Positions 6,910 to 22,153 of a stretch of DNA of 29,502 nucleotides are shown piece after piece (position 1 is the first letter of the stretch; the number at the start of each line of letters is the position of its first letter). The stretch is from Spirochaetales bacterium (GTDB taxonomy: Bacteria; Spirochaetota; Spirochaetia; SZUA-6; DRHE01), in the NCBI GenBank assembly GCA_016930895.1, contig JAFGFV010000271.1:1-29502 (forward strand), read 5' to 3'. The notes below the pieces were generated by a model. It was not told the origin of the DNA. It did not search any database and saw only the letters and a list, made by a program, of their open reading frames with translations. Position numbers and translations under genes: made by a program.

Positions 6910-6984
6910 GGACACCTCCTTCGGCGAACACACGGTAGCCGGCCTGCATCGACCTGGCAAGAGCAGGGAGCGGCGGCCGCGCTC

Positions 6985-7014
6985 TTGATCGTGCTGCCCG
7001 CCCGGGCCCATACT
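6985..7014 (+). promoter_or_regulatory. Possible promoter of the ParB-like gene
   Basis: TTGATC (6985-6990), 18-bp spacer, CATACT (7009-7014, 4 of 6 to TATAAT). The predicted start would be about 7021, giving a leader of only about a dozen bases before the ATG at 7033, where no good ribosome site is seen. Confidence 0.35.
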
Positions 7015-7032
7015 GGTCCACAGGTGCCAACG

Positions 7033-7833
7033 ATGAGCGGCAAGCTGAAGTGCTTTCACGAGGAGCTGCGCGGCCGGCAGTACAACACCCTGCCGGTGGG
7101 CCTGCGGGTCATCGAGGTGAGCAGGATCACCGGTTCCCTCGGCAAGTGCGAGGAGCTCGACGGCAGGTTTCAGCCGCGCGGCCGCACCCACCGCAAGGAG
7201 CGTCACCGACGTACCCGCATGGACCGCATGTTCAGCAGCTTCGACGCGGGCGCTTCGCTGCCGCCCATCGATGCGTACCTCTACGCCGGTGAGTACTATG
7301 TCGTGGACGGGCACCGGCGGGTAGCCTCCGCGATCACCGCCGGCCGCGAGTTCATCGACGCGAACCTCACCGAGGTGGTCCTGCTGGGAGACCGCCGTTC
7401 CCAGGAAGGGGCGCTCTCGCGCCGGGCCTTCGAGCAGCAAACCGGGCTCACGAACGTGCGTTTGACCAACGAGGCCGGCTACCGCTTCCTGCTGAAGGAA
7501 ATCGAGGCGACCGCCGGGGAAGGATCCGTCCGGGAAAAAGCGAAGACCTGGTACTCCAGGACGTACCTCCCGGCCTGCAAGGCCATCGAGCGCGCTGGGC
7601 TCCCCGAGTTCTTCCCGGGGATGCGGGAGGGGGACCTGTTCGTCATGATCCTGCGTTTTCACCGGGAGCTGGACTCGGGATTCGAGAAGAGCGGGGATTT
7701 CGAGGAGGTCCTCTCGCGCTTCCTGGCCGCCCGCAGGAAGCTTCGCTTCAGGCTGAACCGCTGTGCGCCGTTCCGCTGGATCGCGCGCGTCTTTGGCCGG
7801 CGCCCGCCGGAATACCGAAGCCCGCCCGAATAA
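7033..7833 (+). CDS. Orphan ParB/sulfiredoxin-fold domain protein
   Basis: A 266-residue basic protein. Residues about 64-120 carry the ParB N-terminal/sulfiredoxin-like signature: LPPIDAYLYAGEYYVVDGHRRVASA, with DGHRR at 92-96, the nucleotide/phosphate-binding box of this fold. The N-terminal 60 residues are rich in Arg and His. The C-terminal half is helical and ends in an Arg-rich tail. No helix-turn-helix of chromosomal ParB is recognisable and no ParA gene is nearby, so a role in chromosome partition is unlikely. Single-domain GHR proteins of this fold can be CTPases, nucleases or kinase-like enzymes. I chose the ATG at 7033; a GTG at 7024 is also possible. The stop codon is part of the A-run of the oppositely oriented gap terminator. 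Function unknown. Confidence 0.65.
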   Translation: MSGKLKCFHEELRGRQYNTLPVGLRVIEVSRITGSLGKCEELDGRFQPRGRTHRKERHRRTRMDRMFSSFDAGASLPPIDAYLYAGEYYVVDGHRRVASAITAGREFIDANLTEVVLLGDRRSQEGALSRRAFEQQTGLTNVRLTNEAGYRFLLKEIEATAGEGSVREKAKTWYSRTYLPACKAIERAGLPEFFPGMREGDLFVMILRFHRELDSGFEKSGDFEEVLSRFLAARRKLRFRLNRCAPFRWIARVFGRRPPEYRSPPE

Positions 7834-9210: not shown

Positions 9211-10275
9211 ATGACATCTCTCGAACGAACCCAGAGAGCCATCAGCATGAAGTCCATCGACCGGGTGCCCCAGTTTCCGATCCTGATCGCCCCGGCCTGC
9301 CAGCTGGTCGGCGTCAAACAACGGGACTATTCCCTGGACCCCGAGGTCATGGCCGACACCCTGATCCGGGCCCGGGATCTCCTCGACACCGACGGGATCT
9401 ACGTGTCCCGGGACAACTGGGTCTATCACGAGGCCCTCGGGGGCGAGCTGATCTTTCCGGAAGATGACGAGCCCTACAGCAAGCAGACGGTGCTGCCGTC
9501 GGTCAAGGAGTTCAGGAAGCTCCGGGTCCCAGACCCGCAGACCGCCCCCGGCATGAAAACCCTCCTGGCCGCGGCCCGCAAGGTCGTGGCGGCGGTGGGG
9601 GACCGCTACTACATTCAGGCCAACATCGATTGCGGTCCGTTCAGCTTGGCCGCAGTGTTGCGCGGAGCCGAGTCCTTCCTGCTGGACCTGATGACCGAGA
9701 ACGAACGCGATCTCGAGGAGTTCCTGGACTTCTGCACCGAGGTGGTCGTGGCCTACGGAAAGGCCATGATCACCACCGGAGTGCATGGGATCCAGTATGG
9801 AGACTCGACGGCCAGCCTGGTCGGCCCGGAGCACTACGAACGCTTCGCGCTGCCCTACCAGGAGCGATCCGTGGATGCCCTGATCGGTCCGGAGTGCGAC
9901 GTCTGGATCCACATCTGCGGAAAAACCGATCACCTCCTGCACTTCCTGAGACCCCTGCCCATCCAGGGATTCGAGGTCGACGCCAAGGTCCCGATGACTA
10001 CAGCCAGGCGCCTGCTCGGGGACAAGATCGCGATCAAGGGCAACCTGGACACGACCTTCCTGCTCCGGCAGACGCCCCAAGAGGTCTACGACGCCACGAT
10101 GGGTATCCTGAGGGAAGGGGACTTCCGCACCGGGATCGTCATGTCCCCGGGCTGCGGCGTCGCGCGCATGACCCCGCTGGAGAACCTGCGGGCCATGACC
10201 CGTGCCTGCGCGGACTACCGACCCCCCGACGGAGCGGGCTCCCCGGATCCCGGCGGCTCCGACAGCAACAGATAG
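9211..10275 (+). CDS. UroD-superfamily protein with methyltransferase-type zinc site
   Basis: A 354-residue (beta/alpha)8-barrel protein of the UroD/MtaA/CmuA family. I chose the ATG at 9211 because it follows GAGGAG and gives the family-typical opening MTSLERTQRAISMKSIDRVP. The zinc ligands used by corrinoid methyltransferases MtaA and CmuA are all present: H234 and C236 in WIHICGK, and C315 in MSPGCGV. The barrel segment IAIKGNLDTTFLL is also typical. In that family the zinc activates a thiol for methyl transfer from a corrinoid, but no corrinoid-binding protein is visible here, so the substrate is open. The C-terminus is a low-complexity Pro/Gly/Ser tail (PPDGAGSPDPGGSDSNR), encoded across a 61-bp overlap with the convergent AGE epimerase gene. 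It belongs by position to the sugar locus that follows. Confidence 0.85.
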   Translation: MTSLERTQRAISMKSIDRVPQFPILIAPACQLVGVKQRDYSLDPEVMADTLIRARDLLDTDGIYVSRDNWVYHEALGGELIFPEDDEPYSKQTVLPSVKEFRKLRVPDPQTAPGMKTLLAAARKVVAAVGDRYYIQANIDCGPFSLAAVLRGAESFLLDLMTENERDLEEFLDFCTEVVVAYGKAMITTGVHGIQYGDSTASLVGPEHYERFALPYQERSVDALIGPECDVWIHICGKTDHLLHFLRPLPIQGFEVDAKVPMTTARRLLGDKIAIKGNLDTTFLLRQTPQEVYDATMGILREGDFRTGIVMSPGCGVARMTPLENLRAMTRACADYRPPDGAGSPDPGGSDSNR

Positions 10276-11456
10276 CAGTTGAGAAACGCCCTGGGGATGT
10301 GGAAGAAGCCCTTCACACACCCCTTCAGGGTCTGAGACACCGATCCATCGCGGCGCAGGTAGCCGTACCATTCCCCGTATCGAGGATCCGGGAAGTACTT
10401 GAAGCTCCAATAGTGCAGCCGTTCGTACCAGCTCATGAGGGCCTCGTCGCCGGTCTGGTCGTAGGCGAGCAGCAGGGCGTACAGTCCCTCCGCGTGAGGC
10501 CAGAAGAGCTTGGCATCCCAGTCCTGGCTCTCTCCCCAGTCCTCATCCTGGTGGCCCGGCGGCTTGCCCGCGAAATCCACGAAGTTGAACAGCCCCCCGT
10601 GCACAGGGTCCCAGCCACGGCGCATCGTCCACTCCATGATCCTGCAGGAGCGCTCGACGATCCCTCGATCCTGCAGATGCACGCCCTCGCGCAGGCAGAA
10701 CCACGCGGACTCCAGACAGTGCCCCGGGGTAACGGAGCGGCCCTCGGGCTCGGACAGATCCACGCCGCCGTCCGCCAGCACACGCTCGAACATGGCCTGC
10801 TGCTCGTCCCGGGCAAAGGTGTACAGCTCTTCGTGGACCCAGCCCCGGATCAGCTCCGTGTAGCGGGGATCGTCCCGGAGGGCCCGCAGCTCCTGGGTCG
10901 TGTTGATCAGAATCATGCCCGGTGCATGCTCGCGGTATACCGCCCTGCGCACCCCCGGCTGCACATCGAGCTCCCCGGACTGGAGCCGCTCCACGATCGA
11001 CCAGTACAGTCGCTCAGCCTTGTGAAGGTATTCCTCTCGCCCGCTCGCCTTGGCGTACTCGGCAAAGGCGAGAACCACGAAGGCTTCCGCGAAGATCTCA
11101 GCGGGACGGGAGTACAGAGGCTCTCCCTCCCGCGTGAGCTTCGTGTAGGCGTGCCCGTCCTCGTCCAGGGCAAACCTGGCCAGGAACTCCACTCCCAGTC
11201 GCGAAGCCTCCAGCCACTCGACTCTCGGCTCAACGGCGTTGCACAACTTGGCGAACATGTAGGCCTCGCGGCCTTGAGGCCACAGGTACTTGCCCGTTCC
11301 GTACGGGCTGCCGTCACGCTCCAGCATGGTGAGGTACCCGCCGAAGCTCCGGTCCAGGGAGTGCTCCAGCCAGAACGGTACACAGTCCTCCAACAGCTGG
11401 ACGCGATAGAACTCCCGCAGCGCCCCCCGGTCCCGCAGGGAAAAGCGGCTCATCAT
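10215..11456 (-). CDS. AGE-family epimerase/isomerase (copy 1)
   Basis: A 413-residue (alpha/alpha)6-barrel enzyme of the N-acylglucosamine 2-epimerase family, which includes N-acetylglucosamine 2-epimerases, cellobiose epimerase and YihS-type aldose-ketose isomerases. Catalytic histidines are visible: H246 in TPGHCLESAWF and H386 in FFHIPRAF, with WPHAEG (H321, E323) between them; the FFHIPR form is close to that of mammalian GlcNAc 2-epimerase. The exact sugar cannot be read. The start at 11456 overlaps the stop of the UroD-like gene upstream (ATGA), so translation is probably coupled; a second ATG follows immediately. It is the last gene of the leftward transporter operon and overlaps the end of the convergent UroD-like gene by 61 bp. 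Its Pro/Gly/Ser-rich tail looks like an extension formed by that overlap. Confidence 0.9.
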   Translation of the reverse strand: MMSRFSLRDRGALREFYRVQLLEDCVPFWLEHSLDRSFGGYLTMLERDGSPYGTGKYLWPQGREAYMFAKLCNAVEPRVEWLEASRLGVEFLARFALDEDGHAYTKLTREGEPLYSRPAEIFAEAFVVLAFAEYAKASGREEYLHKAERLYWSIVERLQSGELDVQPGVRRAVYREHAPGMILINTTQELRALRDDPRYTELIRGWVHEELYTFARDEQQAMFERVLADGGVDLSEPEGRSVTPGHCLESAWFCLREGVHLQDRGIVERSCRIMEWTMRRGWDPVHGGLFNFVDFAGKPPGHQDEDWGESQDWDAKLFWPHAEGLYALLLAYDQTGDEALMSWYERLHYWSFKYFPDPRYGEWYGYLRRDGSVSQTLKGCVKGFFHIPRAFLNCYLLLSEPPGSGEPAPSGGR

Positions 11457-12565
11457 CGGCCGTTCCCGAGGGTCAACGGCGGCAGATCAAAATGCTCCCG
11501 GTAGGCGTTGACCATGGCCTGATAGTTCCTGAGGGGGACGCTGGCCGTGATGGCGTTGCTGGCGGTGAAGATGTGCCCCCCACTGCCCCAGCCCTCCTCC
11601 AGAATCCGGTGGGTCAGCTGGCGGATCTCTTCCTGTTCGGCAAAGCTCAGGATCTTGCCACAGTCCATGTTTCCGAACAGCAAGATGCGCTCGCCGTACA
11701 GCTCCTTGAGGCGCTTGAGGTCCATGCCGGCGCTCATGTCGATCTCCAGATACCCGTCCACCTCGCATCCCAGAAGGAATCCGTCGATCACGGGCCAGAT
11801 GTCTCCGTCGGTGGCGTTGATCGAAAAGCGGCCTGCTTCCCGAAGCCGACGGGCACATGTCCGTACCTCCGGCACGATGAACTCCTCGTAGGACTGCGGA
11901 GAAATCAGCAAGCGCTTGCCGGCGAAGTCCCCTCCGATGCCGACCTGATCCACCCCGACACGGATGTAGTCCTCGATCACTTTGAGGGCCCGCTGCGTGG
12001 CCATGCGAAAGTGCTCACGCGCCACTTCCGGTGCCAGGAGCATGACCTGCATCAGGTCCGCATCGGTCCAGATCCCGTGAAAGTATGCCGGAGCCAGGAT
12101 CGGCAAGTCCAAACCGCGACGGGCCATTTCCTCCCGCAAGAATCGGAATACGAGGTAACACTCCTCGGGCAGATCCCCAAGCATGGACTCCGCGACGCGG
12201 CGGTTGCGCTCCTGGAGACGCAGGACGGGGTCCCCTCGTTCCTGGAGCTCGAAGTGCAGGCCCAGCTCTTCGAGGGGGTCGTACACGTAGCTCTCCCCCG
12301 GAACCGGGTTGGGGCTGACGTACAGCATATCGTGCCCCAGAACCTGCGCAATCTCCAAGCGATCGCTCGCATAGCGCCTCAAGGCAGCCTCGAAGCCAAA
12401 CGCCTCGGCCTGGGCAAGCCAGGACTCCATGTCTCCCATATACTCGGCAAAGGGCCTGCCAAGGATCTCGTCCGCCAACGGAGGCAAGAGGACGTACTCG
12501 AACAGCGGGGTGCGGTCCGGCTCATGATGAAGAAAAGCGGCTTCCACGCGTTCCCGAGAGGTCAT
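11453..12565 (-). CDS. UroD-superfamily protein lacking the zinc ligands
   Basis: A 370-residue UroD-fold protein. The start ATG at 12563-12565 gives the typical opening MTSRERVEAAFLHHEPDRTP, with GGAG 12 bp upstream; a GTG at 12583 would add six residues and overlap the ROK gene. Where the methyltransferase-type relatives have H-x-C, this protein reads SINATDGD (N250-A-T-D-G), and where they have the third ligand Cys it reads TASNAIT (about 335-341). All three zinc ligands are thus missing. The barrel is otherwise complete (GVDQVGIGGDFAGKR, ILLFGNMDCGKIL). This rules against an MtaA-like zinc mechanism and suggests a different reaction on a similar ligand. It is translationally coupled to the AGE gene downstream and sits 8 bp after the ROK stop codon, within the sugar transporter operon. 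Confidence 0.8.
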   Translation of the reverse strand: MTSRERVEAAFLHHEPDRTPLFEYVLLPPLADEILGRPFAEYMGDMESWLAQAEAFGFEAALRRYASDRLEIAQVLGHDMLYVSPNPVPGESYVYDPLEELGLHFELQERGDPVLRLQERNRRVAESMLGDLPEECYLVFRFLREEMARRGLDLPILAPAYFHGIWTDADLMQVMLLAPEVAREHFRMATQRALKVIEDYIRVGVDQVGIGGDFAGKRLLISPQSYEEFIVPEVRTCARRLREAGRFSINATDGDIWPVIDGFLLGCEVDGYLEIDMSAGMDLKRLKELYGERILLFGNMDCGKILSFAEQEEIRQLTHRILEEGWGSGGHIFTASNAITASVPLRNYQAMVNAYREHFDLPPLTLGNGR

Positions 12566-12573
12566 GATCTGTT

Positions 12574-13779
12574 TCAGCTCCACTGCGAGAAGTATCCGAT
12601 CAGGATGACGCTGCTCGTGCCCATCAGGCGGATGTCGTCCCTATCTTCCGAGTAGAACATCTTCAGCGACCTGGCGATCGGACGGAGGGTCAGATTCATG
12701 ACCACCCGCTCGATGCTCTCGAACAGGAACCGGTTGCCGTCGATCACGGAGCCTCGCAGGATGATCATCTCGGGGTTGAAGATGTTGGCGATGTCGGCCA
12801 GCCTCTCTCCCACGCTGGTCCCCACCTGGCCGAAGATGTTGCGGGCAAAGCGGTCGCCGTTGTTGGCCGCGACGATCACATGCTCGATCTGAAGGGCCTC
12901 GACCTCGCCGCCGCAGTGCTTGAGCACTTCGCTGTTCACCCCCTGGTCGAGCCCTTTGCGCACCTCCGAAAGGATGTACCCCTGGGAACTCACGGTTTCC
13001 AGACAGCCGGTGTGCCCGCAGAAGCACAGCTGGCCGTTGTCCTGGCTGTGGGTATGCCCGAACTCCCCGGCGTAGTGGCTCTTGCCCATGTAGATCTCGC
13101 CGTTGGTTACAATCCCCATTCCGATCCCTTCCCCGATCATGACACACAGGAAGTGATCGACCCCGATCCCCTTGCCGTAGTACTTCTCCCCCAGGGCACA
13201 GGCGTTAGCGTCGTTGACCAGGAAGCAGGGAATCCCGTACCGGTCCTCCACCAGTCTCTTCAGAGGCACGTCGTACCAGCCCTTGGCGAACAGATACTCG
13301 TGCGAGACCCCGGCCAGAGGGTCCATGTGGCCCCCCATGGCCGCGCCGATCCCGAAGATTTTTCGGGAAAACCGACCCGCTTCCTGCACCAGGCCGTCCA
13401 GCACGTCGTACAGCTTCGTGAGCAGCTCGTCCTTGGGCATGCCGGAATACGTGGGCGCGCTGCGTTCCGCCATCACGGTGCCAACGGTGTTGATCAGCAC
13501 CCCTCTCATGTACGACACGCTCATGACCAGCACGACGTTCAGCCCCACGTCGGGATTGAGCTCCAAGTAGGTCGAGCGCCGCCCTCCGGTGGAGAGGTCG
13601 CGATCGGTCTCGGTGATCATCCCCATCTCGATGAGCAGCTTGATGTACTTGACGATCGAGGAGGGACTGAGCTTGAGCAGGGCAGCCAGACGGTTGCGGG
13701 TGATGCGCTTGTAGTTCAGGATGAGCTTCAGGATCGCGTTCATCCTGCTCTTCTGTACCGCCGAGAAGTCCGCGAACAT
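12574..13779 (-). CDS. ROK-family transcriptional repressor
   Basis: A 401-residue NagC/XylR/Mlc-type regulator. Residues about 12-65 are a winged helix (ILKLILNYKRITRNRLAALL, then STGGRRS). The ROK domain follows, with VNDANACALGE (N189, D190) and the structural zinc site H242, C252, C254, C259 in GHTHSQDNG-LCFCGHTGCLE. The N-terminal phosphate loop DxGxT of ROK sugar kinases is replaced by VMSVSYMRG, so it should sense rather than phosphorylate its sugar. It lies 15 bp after the second permease gene; the start ATG at 13777-13779 has only a poor ribosome site overlapping the previous stop (TAGGGG). By position it probably controls the divergent promoters at 17117-17222, including its own operon. 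Confidence 0.92.
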   Translation of the reverse strand: MFADFSAVQKSRMNAILKLILNYKRITRNRLAALLKLSPSSIVKYIKLLIEMGMITETDRDLSTGGRRSTYLELNPDVGLNVVLVMSVSYMRGVLINTVGTVMAERSAPTYSGMPKDELLTKLYDVLDGLVQEAGRFSRKIFGIGAAMGGHMDPLAGVSHEYLFAKGWYDVPLKRLVEDRYGIPCFLVNDANACALGEKYYGKGIGVDHFLCVMIGEGIGMGIVTNGEIYMGKSHYAGEFGHTHSQDNGQLCFCGHTGCLETVSSQGYILSEVRKGLDQGVNSEVLKHCGGEVEALQIEHVIVAANNGDRFARNIFGQVGTSVGERLADIANIFNPEMIILRGSVIDGNRFLFESIERVVMNLTLRPIARSLKMFYSEDRDDIRLMGTSSVILIGYFSQWS

Positions 13780-13794
13780 GGGCGCGCGCGGCCC

Positions 13795-14667
13795 CTACCC
13801 TTTGAGCGCGCCGGCGGAGATTCCGGCGATGAAATCCCTCTGCATCAGCCACATGATCAGCAGCACCGGAAAGACGACCACGCACCCCATCGCGGCCATA
13901 GGACCCCAGATCAGGGCCTTGTCGGTGATAAAGCCGGCGACGAGCACGGTGAGCGGCTTGGAGCGGTTTACCGTCAGGATGACCGCATAGAGGAACTCGT
14001 TCCAGCTGAACACAAAGGTGAGCATCCCGGTGGCGATGAGCCCTGACTTGACCATGGGAGTGGTGACGTACAGGTAGCGCTGCGGCAGGGTGCAGCCATC
14101 CAGCATGCTCTGCTCTTCCACCTCGAAGGGGGCCTCCTGGTAGAATCCGATCATCAGCAGAATGACCAGCGGCAGGTTGAAGCTGGTGTTCATGATGATC
14201 AGGGAAAGCACGTTGTCCATGAGCCGCAGCGAACGGATGATGTAGAACACCGGCACCGCGACCACGATGGCCGGGTACATCTTCTGCACCAGGAACCATC
14301 CGGCCATCACGTTCTTGATTCGCTTGGGGAGGGCGCCGTTGATCAGGGAGTAGGAAGCCATGGAGCCGAAAGCGACCGTGAAGACCGTGGCCCCCGCAGC
14401 GATGAGCAGCGAGTTCATCAATCCCTTGAGCAGCTGATACTTGGCCACCAGATCGATGAAGTTCTGAAAGGTGATCTTGGTCGGGAACATGACCGGTGGG
14501 CTGGAGTAGTACTCCTGTTCGACCTTGAAGGCGTTGGTGATCAGCCAGTAGAAGGGAAACAGGATTGCCAAAAACAGCACGATCAGGATGATGACCCGGG
14601 CGGGGAAACCGAGAAAGTTGCTCAGGTACCCGGAGCGTCTGCGTCTGGATGACCTCTCGATCCTCAT
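13795..14667 (-). CDS. ABC sugar transporter permease (MalG type)
   Basis: A 290-residue inner-membrane protein with about six membrane segments, the first at about 24-45 after a very basic N-terminus (MRIERSSRRRRS). The cytoplasmic EAA loop that docks the ATPase is at about 181-209 (EEQSMLDGCTLPQRYLYVTTP). It belongs to the carbohydrate uptake CUT1 family and ends with the usual RDFIAGISAGALKG. The start at 14665-14667 has AGGAGG and overlaps the stop of the first permease gene by 4 bp (ATGA). No ATPase gene is in the window; CUT1 systems commonly share an MsmK/UgpC-type ATPase encoded elsewhere. Confidence 0.93.
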   Translation of the reverse strand: MRIERSSRRRRSGYLSNFLGFPARVIILIVLFLAILFPFYWLITNAFKVEQEYYSSPPVMFPTKITFQNFIDLVAKYQLLKGLMNSLLIAAGATVFTVAFGSMASYSLINGALPKRIKNVMAGWFLVQKMYPAIVVAVPVFYIIRSLRLMDNVLSLIIMNTSFNLPLVILLMIGFYQEAPFEVEEQSMLDGCTLPQRYLYVTTPMVKSGLIATGMLTFVFSWNEFLYAVILTVNRSKPLTVLVAGFITDKALIWGPMAAMGCVVVFPVLLIMWLMQRDFIAGISAGALKG

Positions 14668-15569
14668 CCCAACCTCCTGAGCTGAAGGTTTCGCAGGCGG
14701 ATGAAGCCCCAGGCCACGATCGACATGACGATGACGAACAGGATGGCGGTGGCCGAGGAATACCCGACGTCGAGGAATTTGATCCCCTGCCGGTAGATGT
14801 AGGTGGGCAGCATCTCCGTGGCGTTTCCCGGACCGCCCTGGGTCATGACAAAGATGACGTCGAAGATCTTGAAGGCATCGATGAAGCGGATCATGGCCAC
14901 GATGATGATGACCGGAGAAGCGATCGGAAGCACGACCTTGGTGAACAGCTTCCAGGGTGAGGCCCCGTCCACGCGGGCGGCATCCAGGAAGCTCGTGGGT
15001 ATCGACTTGATGGAGGACAGCACGAGGACCGCCACAAAGGGAACGAACTGCCAGCAGTCCACGAAGACGATCGTATAGATCGCGATCCGGTAGTCGCCGA
15101 TCCACGATACGGGGGGTATGCCCACGAAACTCAGCAGGTAATTGACGACCCCGTAGGTGCGGTCCATCATCATCCGCCACAGAGTCCCCGCGGCCACCGG
15201 GGCGATGATCATGGGCACCAGCAGGATGGTCGTGAGCAGCCTCGAGAGGCGGTTATCGTCGGACAACAGCATGGCCACGATCACACCGAGGACGATCTCG
15301 ACGGATACCGACAGCACGGCAAACAGAACGTTGTTGGTCAGGGCTTTGATGAAGATCTCATCCCGAAACATGTTGACGTAGTTCTGCAAGCCCACGAACA
15401 CGGGCCTGGAAGAAGCGATGGTCAGCTTGTAGCGATGCAGGCTCAGCACCAAGCCGTACCCAAGGGGAATGAAAGCGGCGATCATGAGCACTGCAACTAC
15501 CGGCAGGAGGAATGTCCAGGACCAGATCTTGTCGACCGTGGTTTGACGCACGTGCCTGGTTACCAGCAT
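14664..15569 (-). CDS. ABC sugar transporter permease (MalF/UgpA type)
   Basis: A 301-residue integral membrane protein, partner of the next permease. The first segment is at about 18-42 (FLLPVVAVLMIAAFIPLGYG), and the EAA loop is SFLDAARVDGASPWKLFTKV. The segment IFDVIFVMTQGGPGNATEML is a hallmark of CUT1 MalF-like subunits. The start at 15567-15569 follows AGGAGG. It lies 88 bp after the binding-protein gene, with a stable hairpin in that gap. Confidence 0.93.
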   Translation of the reverse strand: MLVTRHVRQTTVDKIWSWTFLLPVVAVLMIAAFIPLGYGLVLSLHRYKLTIASSRPVFVGLQNYVNMFRDEIFIKALTNNVLFAVLSVSVEIVLGVIVAMLLSDDNRLSRLLTTILLVPMIIAPVAAGTLWRMMMDRTYGVVNYLLSFVGIPPVSWIGDYRIAIYTIVFVDCWQFVPFVAVLVLSSIKSIPTSFLDAARVDGASPWKLFTKVVLPIASPVIIIVAMIRFIDAFKIFDVIFVMTQGGPGNATEMLPTYIYRQGIKFLDVGYSSATAILFVIVMSIVAWGFIRLRNLQLRRLG

Positions 15570-15592
15570 GGGACGTTCACGCCTCCTAAGAC

Positions 15593-15626
15593 GGTTAGAC
15601 CTCTCTTTTCGGGGAGAGGTCTAACC
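15593..15626 (-). promoter_or_regulatory. Intercistronic hairpin between binding protein and permease genes
   Basis: GGTTAGACCTCTC (15593-15605) pairs perfectly with GAGAGGTCTAACC (15614-15626) around an 8-base loop. No T-run follows in either direction. Such hairpins after a binding-protein gene usually protect the upstream mRNA from 3' exonucleases or partly stop transcription, raising binding protein over permease levels. Confidence 0.7.
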
Positions 15627-15657
15627 GATGAATCATTTCCGACGGAAGGGCGACACT

Positions 15658-16953
15658 CTACCGACCGGTGTTCTTGATCCCGGGGGCCGGCGGGTACTCG
15701 CTCAGGACCTTGGCCAGGCCGGCTTCCATGAAGCTCACCGCCCTCTCCAGGTCCCACTGTCCGGTCACGTAGTTGGCCACGGCGTCACGGATGGTCGTTT
15801 CGGCCATCGTGCCCGCGGGAATGCGCCACCAGATCACGGCTCCCTGGTCGGAGGCCTTCTTGTGCGGATACAGCTTCGAGTTCTTGATCTCCGGCATCTC
15901 CCACACCGAGGCCCGGGAAGGCAGGATCGCGTAGTCCACGTAGTTCTTGAGCTGCTTCTCGGCGGAGGTGTAGAACTTGATCCACTCCCAGGCGGCGTCC
16001 TTGTTCTTGGATGCCTTCGGAATTCCGATGTCCCAGGAGGACAGAACCGTCACTCCGTTCTTGGCGTAGGGAATCGGCGCGATGGCCCATTTGTTCACGA
16101 CCTTGGACTTCTCGGGATCGTCGCCGTTCGGGGCTATGCCCAGGGTAGGCCAGGAAAAGGCAATCCCCGCGTTGCCGTTCAGGAAGGCGGCGTCCGATTC
16201 GGCCAGGTTCCAGGCCGGAGCGGCGGGATCGGCGAATTCGAACCAACGCTTGGTGACCCTCAACGCCTCGCGCGTCTCCGGAGAATCGATGGTCAGGTTC
16301 CAGTCCTCGTCGGCCCAGCGGCCATCCAGGGACCAGTGGACCATCATCCATAGCCCGCTCAGCTGCTCTTTCACCCCCGGGATGGCGATAGCGTAGAGCC
16401 CGGGAGGATTGTGTATCTCCTCGCACACTTCGAAGAACTCGTCCCACGTCTGGGGGAACTCCTTGATCAGGTCGGTCCGGTAGGCCAGGGTCTGCGGGGT
16501 GTTGGAGAAGGGAAAGCCCATGATCTTGCCGGCCCACTTGCCCGACTGCTCCCAGAGGCCGGCAAGGAAGTCGGAGGTGTCGAAGTTGTCCCTCTCGATG
16601 TACGGTTCCAGGTCCTCCATGAACGGCTCGAACTCGCCGTCCCACTGGCACGCCGGAGTCACCACGTCGTAAGTGCTGTCCCCGGTGGACAGGGCAAGTC
16701 CCATCTTCTCGTACAACGTGATGTACGGGAAGTCCACGATCTCGACCTCACAACCGGTCTTCTCCGTGAACTCCGCCGCGTACTCCTTGGCAGCGTCCGC
16801 ATAGGTGGCCGAGAAGTACAGGCAGGTGATCTTCTGGCCGGAGAAGGGCTTGCCTTCCGCGGCCGGTGCCGACTCCTTGCCCCCTCCCGCAAACACCACG
16901 GCAATCGAGGCGAGCATCAGCAACGCCACGCAGACTATCAGTCTCCTCTTCAT
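15658..16953 (-). CDS. ABC sugar-binding protein (CUT1 solute-binding protein)
   Basis: A 431-residue periplasmic binding protein, first gene of the leftward transporter operon. The signal peptide MKRRLIVCVALLMLASIAVVFA is followed by GGGKES; there is no lipobox cysteine, and this A-GGGKE end is familiar from spirochaete binding proteins. The mature part has the CUT1 architecture (EFTEKTGCEVEIV, TYDVV, GIAFSWP with the Asn/Gly-rich NGNAG turn, and DAAWEWIKFYTSAE). Many Trp residues (WDIG, WWRIPAG) would line a sugar pocket. Ligand not readable. The start at 16951-16953 has AAGGAG. A promoter with good consensus lies at 17117-17145, giving a leader of about 155 bases. Confidence 0.93.
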   Translation of the reverse strand: MKRRLIVCVALLMLASIAVVFAGGGKESAPAAEGKPFSGQKITCLYFSATYADAAKEYAAEFTEKTGCEVEIVDFPYITLYEKMGLALSTGDSTYDVVTPACQWDGEFEPFMEDLEPYIERDNFDTSDFLAGLWEQSGKWAGKIMGFPFSNTPQTLAYRTDLIKEFPQTWDEFFEVCEEIHNPPGLYAIAIPGVKEQLSGLWMMVHWSLDGRWADEDWNLTIDSPETREALRVTKRWFEFADPAAPAWNLAESDAAFLNGNAGIAFSWPTLGIAPNGDDPEKSKVVNKWAIAPIPYAKNGVTVLSSWDIGIPKASKNKDAAWEWIKFYTSAEKQLKNYVDYAILPSRASVWEMPEIKNSKLYPHKKASDQGAVIWWRIPAGTMAETTIRDAVANYVTGQWDLERAVSFMEAGLAKVLSEYPPAPGIKNTGR

Positions 16954-17088
16954 CGTCTACAACTCCTTTCGCTTGGTTGGCTTCTTCGAACTCGAACCTC
17001 GCTCCGAGCTACGCAACGGTTCGCCTGCCCGGACTGGCGCGGATGTGCCTGACCATCTCCTCCTCCCCCGTCTGACACCTGGACGTGT

Positions 17089-17114
17089 ATCTATGGATCT
17101 CCAGACATAGATCC
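17089..17114. promoter_or_regulatory. Inverted repeat at the start of the transporter operon (possible operator)
   Basis: ATCTATG (17089-17095) and CATAGAT (17106-17112) form an inverted repeat. GGATCT (17095-17100) and AGATCC (17109-17114) form a second, overlapping one. The site begins right at the predicted transcription start downstream of the -10 at 17117, a natural place for repressor binding, most simply by the ROK protein of the same operon. It could also form alternative leader hairpins. Confidence 0.45.
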
Positions 17115-17116
17115 TC

Positions 17117-17145
17117 ATTTTACGGGGTGACACTTCTGCCGTCAA
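17117..17145 (-). promoter_or_regulatory. Promoter of the sugar transporter operon
   Basis: On the minus strand TTGACG (complement of 17140-17145), 17-bp spacer, TAAAAT (complement of 17117-17122). 5 of 6 match in both boxes; one of the best promoters in the window. Confidence 0.8.
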
Positions 17146-17193
17146 GACTTTTTTTACTTGTCGAACTATTTCCCTCTATTTTCGTCTCGTTCA

Positions 17194-17222
17194 TTGACAG
17201 AATGATTGAATGCTCGTAGAAT
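17194..17222 (+). promoter_or_regulatory. Divergent promoter of the UroD-AGE-flavoprotein operon
   Basis: TTGACA (17194-17199, perfect), 17-bp spacer, TAGAAT (17217-17222, 5 of 6). Back-to-back with the transporter promoter, with 48 bp between the two -35 boxes. That stretch contains CTATTT twice (17166-17171, 17176-17181), spaced 10 bp, one helical turn. The predicted start near 17229 excludes codons before it from the gene. Confidence 0.8.
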
Positions 17223-17274
17223 CGAGAACTGTTATGCATGTACTGCGGATTCTTCTCGAAATCTGAGGCTGCCG

Positions 17275-18330
17275 ATGCAGTCGGGCAAGGATACAGTCCG
17301 CCTCGCGCTGAACAAGAGGCAGACCGAACGCCTTCCGTGCTTTCCCCTCATCGATATCGCGTTTGCCTCCGCGTACGTACGCGAACCCATGCGGGAGGTT
17401 CAGCTGGATCCCCGCCTCCATGCCCGGGCACTCAGCGCCTGCGCCGCAGAGCTTCCCGTGGACGGAATCTACATCAACCTGTGCCTCGGGCGCGATCAGC
17501 CCTGCAGGCTCTCGGAGGGAACGTACCAGCTGGACGATGCCCTGACCCTGGCGATACCGGAAAACGATGTCCTGTCGAGCGCCGGGACGGAGATCACCTC
17601 TCTCGACGACCCGCGTTTCGGCACTGCAGAGCTCTATCACCCCGGCATGCTCGAAACCTTTCGGCTCATATCCCCCCGGATCAGGGAAACCGCCGCGGTG
17701 GTCGTCGGGGTTACGGGGACATTCTCGCAGGTGGCCTTTCTCTACGGGGTGGCTGAGACCATGATCGCGATCCTGGACCGGCCGGAGGAAGTCGAGCGGG
17801 CCCTCGACCGGCGTCATTCGGTCGCGATTCGTCAGGTCCGCGAGCTGGCCGCCGCGGGAGCCGAGTTCATCTGGATCGGAGAGGGACTGGGCTCCGGGAG
17901 TCTGATCAGCCCCGCGCAGTATCGACGCTTCGTCCTGCCGTACGAACAGTCACTGGCGGAGGAGATCGCCAGGAGCGGCGCTTCCTCGATTCTCCACATC
18001 TGCGGCAACGTCACCGCTGCTCTACCGGACATCGCCGCGAGCGGAGTCGACGGTTTCGACCTCGACTATCCGGTCGACTTGAGCACGGCACTGGATACCC
18101 TTCTGCCGGCCATGGCAGTCAAGGGAAACATCGACCCCGGGCTCTTTCTCCCGGGGGCAGAGGCAAGGCTGCAAGCCGCCTGCCGGCAGGCCATCGACAC
18201 CGCGTACGGCAGGAAAGGCTTCATCCTCTCCACGGGCTGCCTGGTGCCGCGGGATTCGAGCCTGCGGGGGTTTGAGATCGTGGCGGATTGCTGCCGAGAA
18301 CCCTACCGATCACGGAGGAACGCGGAATGA
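17275..18330 (+). CDS. UroD-superfamily protein with zinc site (first gene of divergent operon)
   Basis: A 351-residue UroD-fold protein. The ATG at 17275 is chosen because it follows TGAGG at proper spacing and lies downstream of the predicted transcription start. H241 and C243 in LHICGNVT and C322 in STGCLVP match the three zinc ligands of MtaA/CmuA-type methyltransferases. AVKGNIDPGLFL corresponds to the conserved KGN barrel strand. The N-terminus is atypical (MQSGKDTVRLALNKRQTERL), shifted from the usual RERV...PDR pattern. It overlaps the AGE gene by 4 bp (ATGA), so a UroD-like/AGE pair is coupled here just as on the leftward operon. Reaction unknown; no corrinoid protein is encoded nearby. 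Confidence 0.83.
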   Translation: MQSGKDTVRLALNKRQTERLPCFPLIDIAFASAYVREPMREVQLDPRLHARALSACAAELPVDGIYINLCLGRDQPCRLSEGTYQLDDALTLAIPENDVLSSAGTEITSLDDPRFGTAELYHPGMLETFRLISPRIRETAAVVVGVTGTFSQVAFLYGVAETMIAILDRPEEVERALDRRHSVAIRQVRELAAAGAEFIWIGEGLGSGSLISPAQYRRFVLPYEQSLAEEIARSGASSILHICGNVTAALPDIAASGVDGFDLDYPVDLSTALDTLLPAMAVKGNIDPGLFLPGAEARLQAACRQAIDTAYGRKGFILSTGCLVPRDSSLRGFEIVADCCREPYRSRRNAE

Positions 18331-19544
18331 AGAGGAAACGGATCGAGACCCTCAGCAAGTACTTCTACGACGAGCTGGTCGGCAACACCCTCCCCTTCTG
18401 GATCGATCATGCCACCGACCGTGAGTTCGGCGGCTTCACCACCTTTCTCGATCGCAAGGGAGCCCTCCTGTGCCCGGACAAACCGATGTGGGTCATGGGC
18501 CGGATCACCTGGCTGCTGGCACGGCTCTACAACGAGCTGGAGAAGCGAGAGCAATGGCTGGAGCTGGCGCGCCACGGCATCGACTTCATTCGCAGGTACG
18601 GTTTCGACAGGGACGGACGGATGTTCTTCCTGGTGACCCGGGAGGGCCGACCCCTTCGCAAACGCCGCTACCTCTTCACCGAGACCTTTGCGGTCATTGC
18701 ACTGGCCGAATACGCCCGGGCCTCCGGGGACCGAGAGTCTCTCGAACTGGCCAAAAAGACCATGAACCTGATCGAGGATCTGTACGCCCGTGAACCCGGA
18801 ACCCCGGGGGCCCTGGAGCCCAAGATCATTCCCGCGACCCGCAGCTTCCGAGGCCACTCCATGGCGATGATCCAGATCAACACCCTCCAGGTGCTGCGGG
18901 CCGCCGATCCCGGCGGAGACTACGACCTCCTGATCGACCGGGCGATCGACGAGGTCTTCCGCTATTTCGTCAAGCCGGATCTCAAACTCCTCCTGGAAAC
19001 CGTGGGCCCCGCCGGGGAGTACCTGAAGGAGCTCCCCGAAGGACGCTGCGTCAACCCGGGGCACGCGATCGAAACCGCCTGGTTCATCATGGAGGAGGGA
19101 CGGCATCGACGAGACATGTCCTACGCCCAGAAGGCCCTGCCGATTCTCGACTGGTCGCTGGAGTTGGGCTGGGACAAGAAGTATGGCGGGATTCTCTACT
19201 TCGTGGACAGCGAAGGCAGGCAGCCCGTGCAACTGGAGTGGGACATGAAGCTCTGGTGGCCCCACAACGAGGCGATCTACGCAACCCTCCTGGCCCATGC
19301 CCTGACCGGGGAGCCGAGATACCTGGCGTGGTTCGAGAGGATCCTGAGCTGGTCCCTCAAGCACTTTCCGGACAGGCAGTACGGGGAGTGGATCGGTTAC
19401 CTGCATCGTGACGGGAGCCCGGCCCAGGACGTCAAGGGGAACCTATTCAAGGGCCCCTTCCACCTGCCCCGGCAGCAGCTGTTCTGTCACCTCCTGCTCG
19501 AGCAGATGCTCGCCGGAGCTCTTCCCGCAGGCATCTCCGGCTGA
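18327..19544 (+). CDS. AGE-family epimerase/isomerase (copy 2)
   Basis: A 405-residue (alpha/alpha)6-barrel enzyme of the N-acylglucosamine 2-epimerase family. Visible active-site elements are RGHSMA (H177), NPGHAIETAWF (H246), WWPHNEA (H313, E315) and GPFHLPRQ (H379). Copy 1 (10215-11456) shares the spacing of H246 and the FHxPR box but differs widely elsewhere, so the two are old paralogues, perhaps with different sugars. The start ATG overlaps the stop of the UroD-like gene and has GGAGGAA upstream. It is followed after 10 bp by the flavoprotein gene. Substrate not readable. Confidence 0.9.
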   Translation: MKRKRIETLSKYFYDELVGNTLPFWIDHATDREFGGFTTFLDRKGALLCPDKPMWVMGRITWLLARLYNELEKREQWLELARHGIDFIRRYGFDRDGRMFFLVTREGRPLRKRRYLFTETFAVIALAEYARASGDRESLELAKKTMNLIEDLYAREPGTPGALEPKIIPATRSFRGHSMAMIQINTLQVLRAADPGGDYDLLIDRAIDEVFRYFVKPDLKLLLETVGPAGEYLKELPEGRCVNPGHAIETAWFIMEEGRHRRDMSYAQKALPILDWSLELGWDKKYGGILYFVDSEGRQPVQLEWDMKLWWPHNEAIYATLLAHALTGEPRYLAWFERILSWSLKHFPDRQYGEWIGYLHRDGSPAQDVKGNLFKGPFHLPRQQLFCHLLLEQMLAGALPAGISG

Positions 19545-19554
19545 GCGGACTACG

Positions 19555-20118
19555 ATGAAAGTTCTGACGCTGCAGGGCAGCCCGAGACGCCAAGGGAACA
19601 CCGCCACCCTGCTGGCCGCCTTTCTGGAAGGACTGCGGGAGGGCGGGGTCGGAGACATCCAGGAGATCCACCTCGACGAGGTGACGATCCAACCCTGCCG
19701 CAACTGCGACACCTGCCGCCAGCCAAAGGGTCCCTACTGCGTGATCGAGGACGACATGCAGGGCCTGTTCACGCCGTTCATCGAAGCCGATCTGGTCGTG
19801 ATGGCTTCCCCCATCTACTGGTGGAGCGTGACCGCACAGCTCAAGCTGTTCATCGACCGGCTGTACGGCCTGGATCCGGAAACCCGCCCCGAGTTCTTCC
19901 AAAGCAAGAAGCTGGTGCTGATCCTGACCTACTACAGCGAGGACCCGAACTCAGGCGCCGAGATCACCCTCTCGATGTTCCGGGAAATCGCCGAGTACAC
20001 CGGCATGCCGATCGCCGGCATCCTGCGCTACTGCTCGGGCACGACCCACGTGCGGGATTCGCACCGGACCCTCGCCGACGCCCGGGATCTGGGCAGGCGC
20101 CTCGGCGGAGCTGCCTGA
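19555..20118 (+). CDS. Flavodoxin-fold NAD(P)H:FMN reductase with four-cysteine motif
   Basis: A 187-residue flavoprotein. QGSPRRQGNTATLL is the FMN-phosphate loop, and ASPIYWWSVTAQLKLFIDR is the second conserved block of the NADPH-dependent FMN reductase/iron-sulfur flavoprotein family. C48, C51, C54 and C62 form C-x2-C-x2-C-x7-C, the spacing known from iron-sulfur flavoproteins that carry a 4Fe-4S cluster, suggesting an electron carrier in an anaerobe. Ten bp after the AGE gene on the same strand, so probably part of the UroD-AGE operon, where a redox step may be needed. No strong ribosome site is visible (GAGCGG). It converges with ybaK with a 7-bp gap. Confidence 0.85.
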   Translation: MKVLTLQGSPRRQGNTATLLAAFLEGLREGGVGDIQEIHLDEVTIQPCRNCDTCRQPKGPYCVIEDDMQGLFTPFIEADLVVMASPIYWWSVTAQLKLFIDRLYGLDPETRPEFFQSKKLVLILTYYSEDPNSGAEITLSMFREIAEYTGMPIAGILRYCSGTTHVRDSHRTLADARDLGRRLGGAA

Positions 20119-20125
20119 GCCTGCC

Positions 20126-20602
20126 TCACACCACGTCGGCGAAGCGCGCCCCGATCGTCCCGGCCAGCTGCGCCGGGGCGATCTCGATCTGTGTTCCCCG
20201 GCGGCCGGCGCTGACCAGGATCCATTCGAACAGGAGCGCGCTCTCGTCGATCCAGGTGGGGAAGCTCTTTCTCATCCCGACGGGAGAGCAGGCCCCGCGC
20301 ACGTAGCCGGTGAGCTCCAGGAGCTCGGCCACCTTCACCATCTCGATCTTTCGCGTCCCCGCCGCCAGCGCCGCCTTCTTGAGATCGAGCTCGCACGGCC
20401 CCGGCACGCAGTAGACCCGCAGGCCCCCGTCCGCCCCCCGGGTCACCAGGGTCTTGAACACCCGCTCCGGCTCAACCCCCAACGCCGCTGCGGCGCTCAG
20501 CGCGTCCAGGTGCTCCTCGTCGACGCGGTAAGAGCGCAGCCGGTGCGGGACGCCGCGGGACTCGAGGGCACGGATGGCATTGGTCTTGGCGCGCGTGGCC
20601 AT
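20126..20602 (-). CDS. ybaK: YbaK/EbsC-type Cys-tRNA(Pro) deacylase
   Basis: A 158-residue protein of the YbaK/ProX editing family, which hydrolyses Cys mischarged on tRNA-Pro. The catalytic-type lysine K50 lies in RVFKTLV, CELDLKKAALAAG follows, and GYVRGACSPVGMRK is the family signature loop. Length matches YbaK. The start at 20600-20602 has GGGAG upstream. It lies 41 bp downstream of the larA-like gene on the same strand, probably a shared transcript of convenience. Confidence 0.9.
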   Translation of the reverse strand: MATRAKTNAIRALESRGVPHRLRSYRVDEEHLDALSAAAALGVEPERVFKTLVTRGADGGLRVYCVPGPCELDLKKAALAAGTRKIEMVKVAELLELTGYVRGACSPVGMRKSFPTWIDESALLFEWILVSAGRRGTQIEIAPAQLAGTIGARFADVV

Positions 20603-20643
20603 GGCGACACTCCCCGACAGCGCTGCCGCCGTTTGCGAAATTT

Positions 20644-22035
20644 CTACCCCCGTGGCATCGGAATGCCATAGGGGCCGTCGGCCAGGAAGGCGATGCGGGG
20701 CTCGTTTCCCGCCCCGTGCGTCGCGGCGTGCCGGGTGCGGGTCTCCTCGACCACGGCGCGCACCACCTCCTGCACGTTGTCCATCTCGGGGAGGTAGCGC
20801 CGGTCCTCCTCGAGATATCGGTTCCCGTCCACTCCGGGAATCACGGAGCACTCTCTCTTGTCCAATTGCGGGCTGTAGTATACCAGTCCCTCGACCCCGA
20901 CCGACTGCAGTACCGCCGCCCAGGCCTGGACCTCCCACTGCTCCGGAACGAAGGTCCAGTCGCGAGAAAACAGCAGCCGCCGGAAGCGCTCCGGCCCGAT
21001 CAGGGTGAGCAGGTGCAGCAGGCTGCGGTAGCGCTCGCTCCCCACCGGGTTCGTGTCGGTGTTGGCGGCCACCAGCAGGATCCTGCCGCCGGGAAGCACC
21101 GCCCGCTCGGCCGCCAGGGCGGCCTTGACCGCCTGGTAGTGGTTCACGCTTACGGCTCCCCCATGGGTGATCACCAGGTCGTAGCGCCCTTCCAGGGGAA
21201 TCGAGACGTAGCTCTTGAGGAAATCGAAGGCCGCCAGGTGAGCCTGCTCCAGCTCACCGGCGAACACCCCCGTCGGCCGGTACTCCTTGTCCAGAGTCAC
21301 GTTGACCATGAAGTCCGCCCCGACCATCCGGGCTGCTTCGAGGGCCATCTCATGGCAGGGATTGCCTGCGAGCTCCAGGTCGCGGGCTGCCGGGCAGTCC
21401 ATGATCTCGGCGCTGTGGAAGCGGTAGGTGGTGGCCTCGCCCACGAGACCCGGACAGATCGACTTGCGCCCCCCGGAGGCCCCGGCAACGAAATGGCTCT
21501 CCACCAGCCCGGTCAGGATGCGCAGGTCCGCTTGGGTGTACCGCCGATCCACCGAAACCTCCATGCCCGATGAAGTGGCGCCGAGGGAAACCAGCGCGGC
21601 CGGATCGGCGGCGTCGTGGCTCTCGACTGGAACTCCCACCGCGAACACCCGGGGATCCAGGAGCGCCCTCACCTGCGCCTCGCTGAGCGGAGCGTGGGTC
21701 CCGGTGGCCACCAGCACCAGGAGCCGGGAGGCTTCGAACCCGCAGTCCATCAGCCTGCGCAGGATCGGCCACAGGATCCCGCCTTCTCCCCGATAGGGGA
21801 CCGGCCGGGTGTGGTCCGAAACCACGATCACCGCCCGCGCCGCGGGTTTGGCGCCCAGAGTGCGCCGCGCCAGGCTCTCGAGGCTATCGCAGCCGATCGG
21901 CTCCTCCAGGGCCCTCTCCACCGCCGCAGCCGGGTGTGCCAGCGGGGCCACCCGGCCCATCCTCAATACCTCCGCGGTGTCCGGGAGCTCCAGGCGAAGG
22001 GGGTCGCGGCCGAACAGGATCTCCACGGTCCTCAT
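20644..22035 (-). CDS. LarA-family nickel-pincer-dependent racemase
   Basis: A 463-residue protein of the lactate racemase (DUF2088) family. Residues known from Lactobacillus plantarum LarA are all matched at a near-constant offset: SDHTRP (73-78), H114 in ATGTHAP (LarA H108), H181 in ESHFVAG (H174), K191 in GGRKSICPG (K184, which binds the nickel pincer cofactor) and H207 in RFHSAE (H200, nickel ligand). The family includes racemases for lactate and other 2-hydroxy acids, so the substrate is not certain. The cofactor makers LarB, LarC and LarE are not in the window. The start is taken as the ATG at 22033-22035, with no clear ribosome site; a possible promoter ends only a few bases upstream, which would make the mRNA nearly leaderless. 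Divergent from the MtfA-like gene 118 bp away. Confidence 0.88.
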   Translation of the reverse strand: MRTVEILFGRDPLRLELPDTAEVLRMGRVAPLAHPAAAVERALEEPIGCDSLESLARRTLGAKPAARAVIVVSDHTRPVPYRGEGGILWPILRRLMDCGFEASRLLVLVATGTHAPLSEAQVRALLDPRVFAVGVPVESHDAADPAALVSLGATSSGMEVSVDRRYTQADLRILTGLVESHFVAGASGGRKSICPGLVGEATTYRFHSAEIMDCPAARDLELAGNPCHEMALEAARMVGADFMVNVTLDKEYRPTGVFAGELEQAHLAAFDFLKSYVSIPLEGRYDLVITHGGAVSVNHYQAVKAALAAERAVLPGGRILLVAANTDTNPVGSERYRSLLHLLTLIGPERFRRLLFSRDWTFVPEQWEVQAWAAVLQSVGVEGLVYYSPQLDKRECSVIPGVDGNRYLEEDRRYLPEMDNVQEVVRAVVEETRTRHAATHGAGNEPRIAFLADGPYGIPMPRG

Positions 22036-22042
22036 GGCCGCC

Positions 22043-22072
22043 AGTATGACCGAAATCCGGGCGGCCGTCCAA
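22043..22072 (-). promoter_or_regulatory. Possible promoter of the LarA-like gene
   Basis: On the minus strand TTGGAC (complement of 22067-22072), 18-bp spacer, CATACT (complement of 22043-22048). Transcription would start almost at the ATG, so either the mRNA is leaderless or this call is wrong. Confidence 0.3.
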
Positions 22073-22153
22073 CCTCGCGGCACCCTGGGAGCCCCGTCGG
22101 TAGACGCCCGCGCCGGGACCGGCGTATCTTCTGCGAGGGAGAAGCCGAAATCG

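Follow-up and report, generated by a model that had tools for sequence, protein, structure and literature searches.

In this work we describe a locus in which three UroD-fold proteins are encoded next to two enzymes of the N-acylglucosamine 2-epimerase (AGE) superfamily and a sugar importer. It lies on contig JAFGFV010000271.1, a 29.5-kb metagenome contig whose closest kin are Spirochaetota and which in its full length is referred to as the window. Pfam scans and inspection of the sequence revealed two divergent operons flanking a 321-bp intergenic region (16954–17274). The minus-strand operon runs in the order binding protein, two permeases, ROK regulator, UroD2 and AGE-L, the plus-strand operon in the order UroD1, AGE-R and flavoprotein. 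UroD3 on the plus strand is convergent to AGE-L, and the 3' ends of these two genes overlap by 61 bp. Transporter and ROK genes are held by the left operon alone. At both UroD-AGE junctions the open reading frames (ORFs) overlap by the four nucleotides ATGA (11453–11456 and 18327–18330). The features are as follows:

9211–10275 (+): UroD3; PF01208, E=3.8e-62; complete MtaA-type zinc motif (HIC...GC); nearest PDB chain MtaA 4ay7, E=2e-21
10215–11456 (-): AGE-L, N-acylglucosamine 2-epimerase superfamily; PF07221, E=1.9e-46; HxxE and FHxPR motifs; nearest PDB entries 8bry and 2gz6
11453–~12565 (-): UroD2; PF01208, E=1e-18; zinc ligands lost
12574–13779 (-): ROK transcriptional regulator; PF00480 plus helix-turn-helix; winged helix, CxCGxxGCxE motif
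13795–~14667 (-): second ATP-binding cassette (ABC) sugar permease; PF00528; start put at ATG 14667, with an ATGA overlap with the upstream permease
14664–15569 (-): first ABC sugar permease; PF00528, E=3.6e-16
15658–16953 (-): CUT1-type extracellular sugar-binding protein; SBP_bac_1, PF01547, E=4.4e-40; nearest PDB entry maltose-binding protein MalE3, 6dtq
16954–17274 (no strand): divergent promoter/operator region; 7-nt inverted repeat 17089–17095 / 17106–17112
~17275–18330 (+): UroD1; PF01208, E=7.7e-39; complete zinc motif (HICG...TGC)
18327–19544 (+): AGE-R, N-acylglucosamine 2-epimerase superfamily; PF07221, E=7.1e-50; nearest PDB entry 8bry, E=1.2e-117
~19555–20118 (+): FMN_red (FMN-reductase-like) flavoprotein; PF03358, E=3e-21; clustered cysteines, C-x2-C-x2-C-x7-C

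The start of UroD2 was set at ATG 12565 from comparison with relatives, the ORF itself opening at GTG 12583. An earlier note on this DNA, made from the sequence alone, had described divergent sugar operons with a CUT1 transporter, a ROK repressor and two UroD-AGE pairs, each overlapping by ATGA, with a third complete UroD-like gene converging on them; every gene it listed was found again. With SBP_bac_1 and two BPD_transp_1 permeases the transporter has the composition of a CUT1 importer. No ABC ATPase was recognised among the window ORFs scanned with Pfam; CUT1 importers often share ATPases.

All three UroD proteins exceed the Pfam gathering score of 23.9 for PF01208 (UroD3 210.7, UroD2 68 and UroD1 134.1 bits). 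They stay below the cut-offs of both more specific models, TIGR01463 for MtaA/CmuA (182.1, 45.4 and 97.0 bits in the same order; cut-off 235.4) and TIGR01464 for HemE (72.9, 30.8 and 50.9 bits; cut-off 302.95). With scores of 31–73 against a cut-off of about 303 a HemE role was rejected for UroD1–3, which share with HemE the fold and the Pfam family and differ by this score and by their HxC or NxT motif. No heme, methanol or methylamine pathway gene was recognised at the locus.

Alignment with MtaA shows a complete H-x-C...C motif, which we take to be the zinc ligands of MtaA, in UroD1 (HICG...TGC) and UroD3 (HICG...GC). MtaA is also the top PDB match by sequence for both proteins and by fold for UroD1. 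UroD2 is different: NATDG (N-x-T-D-G) replaces HxCG and SNAIT replaces GC, and N256, D259, H337 and N343 are invariant across 51 aligned sequences. UroD2 is predicted to be zinc-free. Methyl transfer by UroD2 is still conceivable without the zinc motif, since zinc-free methyltransferases of the UroD family, CdmB and the Moorella O-demethylase, are documented (PMC13222342). The AlphaFold models are confident, with a pLDDT of 92.5 for UroD2 and 95.6 for UroD1. In Foldseek the TM-score to MtaA is 0.82 for UroD1 and 0.66 for UroD2, and the UroD2 model also matches human UroD. Identity is 26% between UroD1 and UroD3, 22% over 200 residues between UroD2 and UroD1, and 39% between AGE-L and AGE-R; because of these low values the UroD and AGE copies are old paralogues rather than the result of a fresh duplication. 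A tree built from 58 UroDs separates UroD2 from a zinc-type group, and within that group UroD1, UroD3 and an AGE-paired UroD from another genome (G044) each have a subclade of their own.

Among characterised systems the closest are MtaA and the soluble coenzyme M methyltransferases of TIGR01463, which have the same fold and share the HxC...C zinc motif with UroD1 and UroD3. UroD1–3 differ from them by scoring under the cut-off, by a sugar-transport context in which no corrinoid gene was found beside them and, for UroD2, by the missing zinc motif. The methyltransferase I components of O-demethylases (MtvB, OdmB, VdmB, CdmB and MtoB) belong to the same superfamily and some of them are zinc-free, as is predicted for UroD2; their substrates are methoxyaromatics or haloalkanes and their published descriptions include a corrinoid protein, whereas the context of UroD1–3 is sugar import.

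Both AGE proteins reach the gathering score of PF07221 (159.3 bits for AGE-L and 170.6 for AGE-R) and both carry HxxE and FHxPR, presumably the catalytic motifs of the superfamily. AGE-L has an 8-residue insertion a little upstream of its DAKLFWPH segment. From typical members they differ further by their coupling to UroD genes and by missing the equivalog cut-off of 600 for GlcNAc 2-epimerase (NF052547), with 321.1 bits for AGE-L and 351.2 for AGE-R. An ordinary amino-sugar uptake system would have the AGEs interconvert N-acetylglucosamine and N-acetylmannosamine next to a NagC-like ROK regulator, with the UroDs on an unrelated methylation side-task. The PDB entries nearest to both AGEs are indeed N-acylglucosamine 2-epimerases, and NagC is the nearest NCBIfam model for the ROK protein. 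Yet we regard this explanation as improbable: besides the low AGE scores the ROK protein reaches only 207 of the required 650, the locus ORFs scanned included no recognisable deacetylase, deaminase, kinase or lyase of amino-sugar metabolism, and the translational coupling of UroD and AGE recurs in relatives.

The conservation of the layout was determined by scanning a genome-contig collection of 84,980 species genomes with a UroD2 alignment, which through two peptide patterns yielded at least 59 loci from many phyla. The loci are cut by contig ends, and genes were called with our own longest-ORF script, so that short or antisense errors occur. Twelve of the 59 were assigned to Spirochaetota from record titles, which together with the window gives 13 Spirochaetota loci and 60 loci overall. 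The order binding protein, permeases, ROK and UroD2 was found in 10 of the 13. A UroD gene directly adjoins an AGE gene on the same strand in 9 of the 13 and in 11 of all 60 loci. Four Spirochaetota loci are without the pair: two are cut by contig ends (L006 and L048), L031 contains masked bases (208 N) and L032 has no pair. The third UroD has counterparts as well. At L007 the order is UroD1, AGE and UroD3 according to the tree, and L004 looks alike, its first UroD being absent from the tree; the UroD3-clade gene follows AGE at these two loci and precedes it at L005. Since UroD3-clade genes thus stand beside AGE at three loci, the third UroD is a member of the set and not a mere neighbour. The AGE-paired UroDs are not one lineage.

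The earlier note had argued from the doubled coupling that the two enzyme types act in one pathway, and named lack of conservation in other genomes as the observation that would speak against this. As the neighbourhood survey finds the pairing conserved in Spirochaetota, this objection falls away; with UroDs of more than one clade paired in this way, the two types look functionally coupled. We consider it very probable that a single pathway of sugar import and conversion employs the three UroD-fold proteins together with the two AGE epimerases, and this is the most secure of our conclusions.

Several observations weigh against this view. The slot of AGE-L is filled by another gene, from the same cluster, at L003 and L054. 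Outside Spirochaetota AGE stands beside UroD in only 2 of 47 loci, one from Ruminiclostridium (L012) and one from Caldilineae (L015). No recurring UroD2 partner was found there, and no Pfam family recurs in more than two of the 69 UroD2 neighbours counted out of 86, the other 17, mostly short or doubtful ORFs, having been dropped by hand. A phylum scan for AGE was positive in 68 of 392 genomes at E<=1e-30; 28 of the 30 AGE loci taken from it had no UroD within the 4.2 kb examined, and one of the remaining two is the counterpart of the window locus in the relative G001. AGE by itself is not generally tied to UroD. Further scans for UroD2 found it in 1 of 390 and 1 of 383 genomes of two phyla, both already known.

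Some of the related loci carry additional genes of their own. At L003 (11144–12331) a gene that resembles M28 peptidases by Pfam, run on this copy only, occupies the AGE-L position after UroD2, and L054 has a gene of the same cluster. A further UroD-AGE pair lies at L150 of G044; according to Pfam its operon also encodes a PfkB kinase and a glycyl-radical enzyme resembling pyruvate-formate lyase, and transaldolase-like and Gfo/Idh-like neighbours were judged by eye. At L012, from a Ruminiclostridium metagenome-assembled genome, UroD2, AGE and a UroD are found inside a large carbohydrate cluster with GH3, a CBM96 protein and genes of the DHDPS and transaldolase families. At L045 (Omnitrophota) and L050 eight genes common to both loci precede UroD2, which is followed by a second UroD. 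Of the 69 UroD2 neighbours overall, two have Fer4 domains; two unassigned genes of L015 and L012 gave no PDB match.

UroD genes are numerous in Spirochaetota: five genomes contained 48, 23, 39, 39 and 70 URO-D matches. The first of these, G001, consists of one 4.84-Mb contig and was used for an analysis of gene neighbourhoods. Half of its URO-D matches (24 of 48) are located within 5 kb of a PF00528 permease match, of which there are 143 from all importer types; 7.8 were expected and 1 of 1000 circular shifts gave a count as high. G001 has only three AGE genes, yet three of the 48 URO-D matches have one of them within 3 kb (5 of 1000 circular shifts), and these three matches are the counterparts of UroD1–3 at the G001 counterpart of the window locus. 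With these three excluded, the 127 neighbouring proteins of the other 45 UroDs included BPD_transp_1 ten times, SBP_bac_1 five times and Gfo/Idh five times. In a random control of 125 proteins (127 drawn, two very long ones dropped) BPD_transp_1 was found three times, and SBP_bac_1 and Gfo/Idh were not among the 25 families listed. No difference was seen for ABC_tran (4 versus 4) and the xylose-isomerase-like TIM barrel (3 versus 2). A metal-site census covered 45 of the 48 UroDs, one of which (U3788) aligns ambiguously; one of the three missed was read later. Six have the full H-x-C...C motif, the UroD2 type occurs once, and 11 of the 45 end in HN(I/L)Q (HNIQ or HNLQ), the last cysteine being replaced by histidine.

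Such abundance could mean that UroD genes are merely frequent and come to lie near AGE without a common function. This fits the range of 23–70 matches per genome and the 28 AGE loci without a nearby UroD; the ATGA overlaps, the pairing in more than one UroD clade and the circular-shift tests already disfavour it, and we hold it to be very improbable.

The earlier note had also stressed that no corrinoid protein is encoded at the locus. Neither did we find one: 39 window ORF queries to Pfam returned no B12-binding domain, and a local corrinoid hidden Markov model found no corrinoid protein in window ORFs of at least 80 aa. As a clue to unusual chemistry this absence has lost weight. At L015, UroD2, AGE, a phosphoesterase and a corrinoid protein are consecutive on one strand; the corrinoid protein is of the methyltransferase type (PF02607 and PF02310; best PDB match 1y80, E=1.2e-59). 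Moreover, a stand-alone corrinoid protein, defined by the proxy of an open-frame length of 170–300 aa, is present in all 15 of 15 UroD2-bearing genomes picked by hand from the 59 loci, versus 11 of 40 genomes without UroD2 (Fisher p=6e-7). Restricted to Spirochaetota, the comparison gives 5 of 5 versus 4 of 20. The control positives comprise 7 of 20 genomes in the phylum of L015's genome and 4 of 20 in that of G001; one of these 11 positives (G020) rests on a weak match (E=1.5e-4). Across 20 Spirochaetota genomes the corrinoid number rises with that of UroD2-profile candidates, which are first-look candidates and not confirmed genes (rho 0.56, or 0.64 with G001 added). 'No corrinoid' holds for the locus, not necessarily for its chemistry.

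The established roles of UroD-fold proteins are in heme metabolism and, as methyltransferases, in methylotrophy. Characterised relatives of the UroDs other than HemE mostly move methyl groups (PMC10418091). Because of this, and because UroD1 and UroD3 keep the MtaA motif and L015 has a corrinoid gene, we tentatively favour a corrinoid-linked demethylation, in which a methyl group is removed from an imported modified sugar with the help of a corrinoid protein acting in trans and the AGEs act on the product. Both divergent operons would import and convert one modified sugar, which may carry its methyl group most simply as an O-methyl ether. UroD2, without zinc ligands, would be the methyltransferase on the substrate side, and a corrinoid protein from another place in the genome would take over the methyl group from it. 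UroD1 and UroD3, MtaA-like and with the zinc motif, might hand the methyl group on to an acceptor of the thiol type or might work on a second position, and AGE-L and AGE-R would epimerise or isomerise the freed sugar at C2. Of the two reactions suggested in the earlier note, demethylation is still a candidate, with a corrinoid protein supplied from another locus, given the L015 operon and the 15 of 15 genomes; decarboxylation has gained no specific evidence.

A number of findings count against demethylation of this kind. The sequence itself gives no sign of a methylated substrate. Genome size also tracks with the corrinoid number (rho 0.44 with G001) and is one confounder of the co-occurrence; life style and, in 10 of the 15 genomes, phylum are others. 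By the length rule one genome, G016, lacks a stand-alone corrinoid protein although 28 UroD candidates were counted in it. In the stretches covered, 59 of the 60 loci contain no corrinoid gene, L015 being the only one that does. In G001 only 1 of the 48 UroD matches has a corrinoid protein (8 PF02607 matches) no farther than 8 kb away, the chance expectation being 1.07. Neighbours were scanned for seven of these eight corrinoid genes. Six have a methylamine-type methyltransferase gene, MttB or MtmB, directly alongside and are thus already provided with a partner; the seventh adjoins an AraC-type regulator, followed by formate-tetrahydrofolate ligase.

Much of this would fit corrinoid-independent chemistry, a possible reading that comes close behind demethylation and is akin to what the earlier note had proposed. 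The imported sugar derivative would be the direct substrate of the UroDs, whose activity might be that of a decarboxylase, a lyase or a metal-dependent isomerase; the AGEs would act on the product, and the invariant Asn/Asp set of UroD2 would form a new active site. It is consistent with the 59 loci at which no corrinoid gene was found and with the MttB or MtmB partners of the G001 corrinoid genes, as well as with G001 UroD genes that accompany ABC importer genes and not corrinoid genes. The Gfo/Idh dehydrogenases found five times among their neighbours point the same way, as do the lost zinc ligands and four invariant residues of UroD2. On the other side stand the corrinoid protein of the L015 operon, the co-occurrence in 15 of 15 genomes, the intact MtaA-type zinc motif of UroD1 and UroD3 and the zinc-free UroD methyltransferases reported in PMC13222342.

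A further, quite improbable reading starts from the zinc-type proteins. Since zinc in the UroD superfamily activates thiols, a sulfur-containing sugar could be the substrate of UroD1 and UroD3, which retain the motif and would then target its thiol or methylthio group. The related Type 1 mlp gene clusters, which resemble the locus in that several distinct MtaA-like proteins are encoded together, are tied to methyl-sulfur metabolism (PMC10418091). These clusters also encode a corrinoid protein and a Ram/RACE activase; at the window locus no corrinoid protein was found beside the UroD genes, an activase was not searched for, and the UroDs sit amid ABC transporter, ROK and AGE genes. No sulfur-specific gene was recognised at the locus.

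Returning to corrinoid-linked demethylation, its extension beyond this locus is put forward with caution. In some bacteria, including spirochaetes, the radiation of UroD-fold proteins (23–70 per genome in the five counted) might represent substrate-specific catabolic enzymes tied to ABC importers, which would strip methyl or other one-carbon groups from modified sugars; the zinc-less UroD2 type, zinc-type UroDs and AGEs would then work in series with a shared corrinoid protein in trans. These genomes encode dozens of UroD-fold proteins, many beside ABC importers. Should sugars be their substrates, a large protein family that is mostly unassigned would acquire a role in biology. The anaerobic degradation of methylated sugars from plants and microbes, for which no corrinoid route was met in the literature searched, would then become testable. 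With one binding protein, three UroDs and two epimerases the locus is a compact test case. Full-text literature searches, whose coverage largely leaves out subscription papers, met no title or opening of an abstract that describes a UroD-AGE or UroD-sugar link; the nearest reports deal with the mlp clusters (PMC10418091) and with the chloromethane system (PMC13222342). The families and the fold are known; within the reach of these searches their combination and the zinc-less UroD2 type appear undescribed.

At one of the MttB sites of G001, L075 (3116–7805), MttB, a corrinoid protein, a 460-aa gene and a UroD of the HSCG...HNIQ type stand in line. A direct link of the HNIQ-type UroD class to corrinoid chemistry is possible.

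The Cys-motif flavoprotein that the earlier note placed at the end of the right operon is indeed present. No homologue was detected in the 59 related loci at E<=1e-5, and it was therefore not retained as a core part of such loci. A distant homologue (33% identity, E=2.8e-25) lies in G001 at L069 (4802–5371), directly before another UroD gene; a wider link between flavoprotein and UroD is possible.

The 7-nt inverted repeat of the intergenic region (17089–17095 / 17106–17112) was not among the repeats reported for the corresponding stretch in four relatives. A conserved operator was therefore rejected, and a role of the repeat as operator in the window is only a suggestion.

The right operon is adjoined on the minus strand (20126–22317) by a gene with an aminoacyl-tRNA-editing domain and a gene for LarA of the lactate racemase family. 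To the left a 485-aa ORF (6205–7662, minus strand) matches Asp/Glu/hydantoin racemase (PF01177) with its C-terminal half, its N-terminal half being unassigned. At E<=1e-5 the 59 related loci contained no homologue of LarA, of the tRNA-editing, M90 and Asp/Glu racemase genes or of further genes on the flanks, all of which were rejected as parts of the system. Between the binding-protein and permease genes (15593–15626) a 13-bp hairpin, GGTTAGACCTCTC ... GAGAGGTCTAACC, was noticed by eye; its position is the usual place for an mRNA-stabilising or attenuating hairpin.

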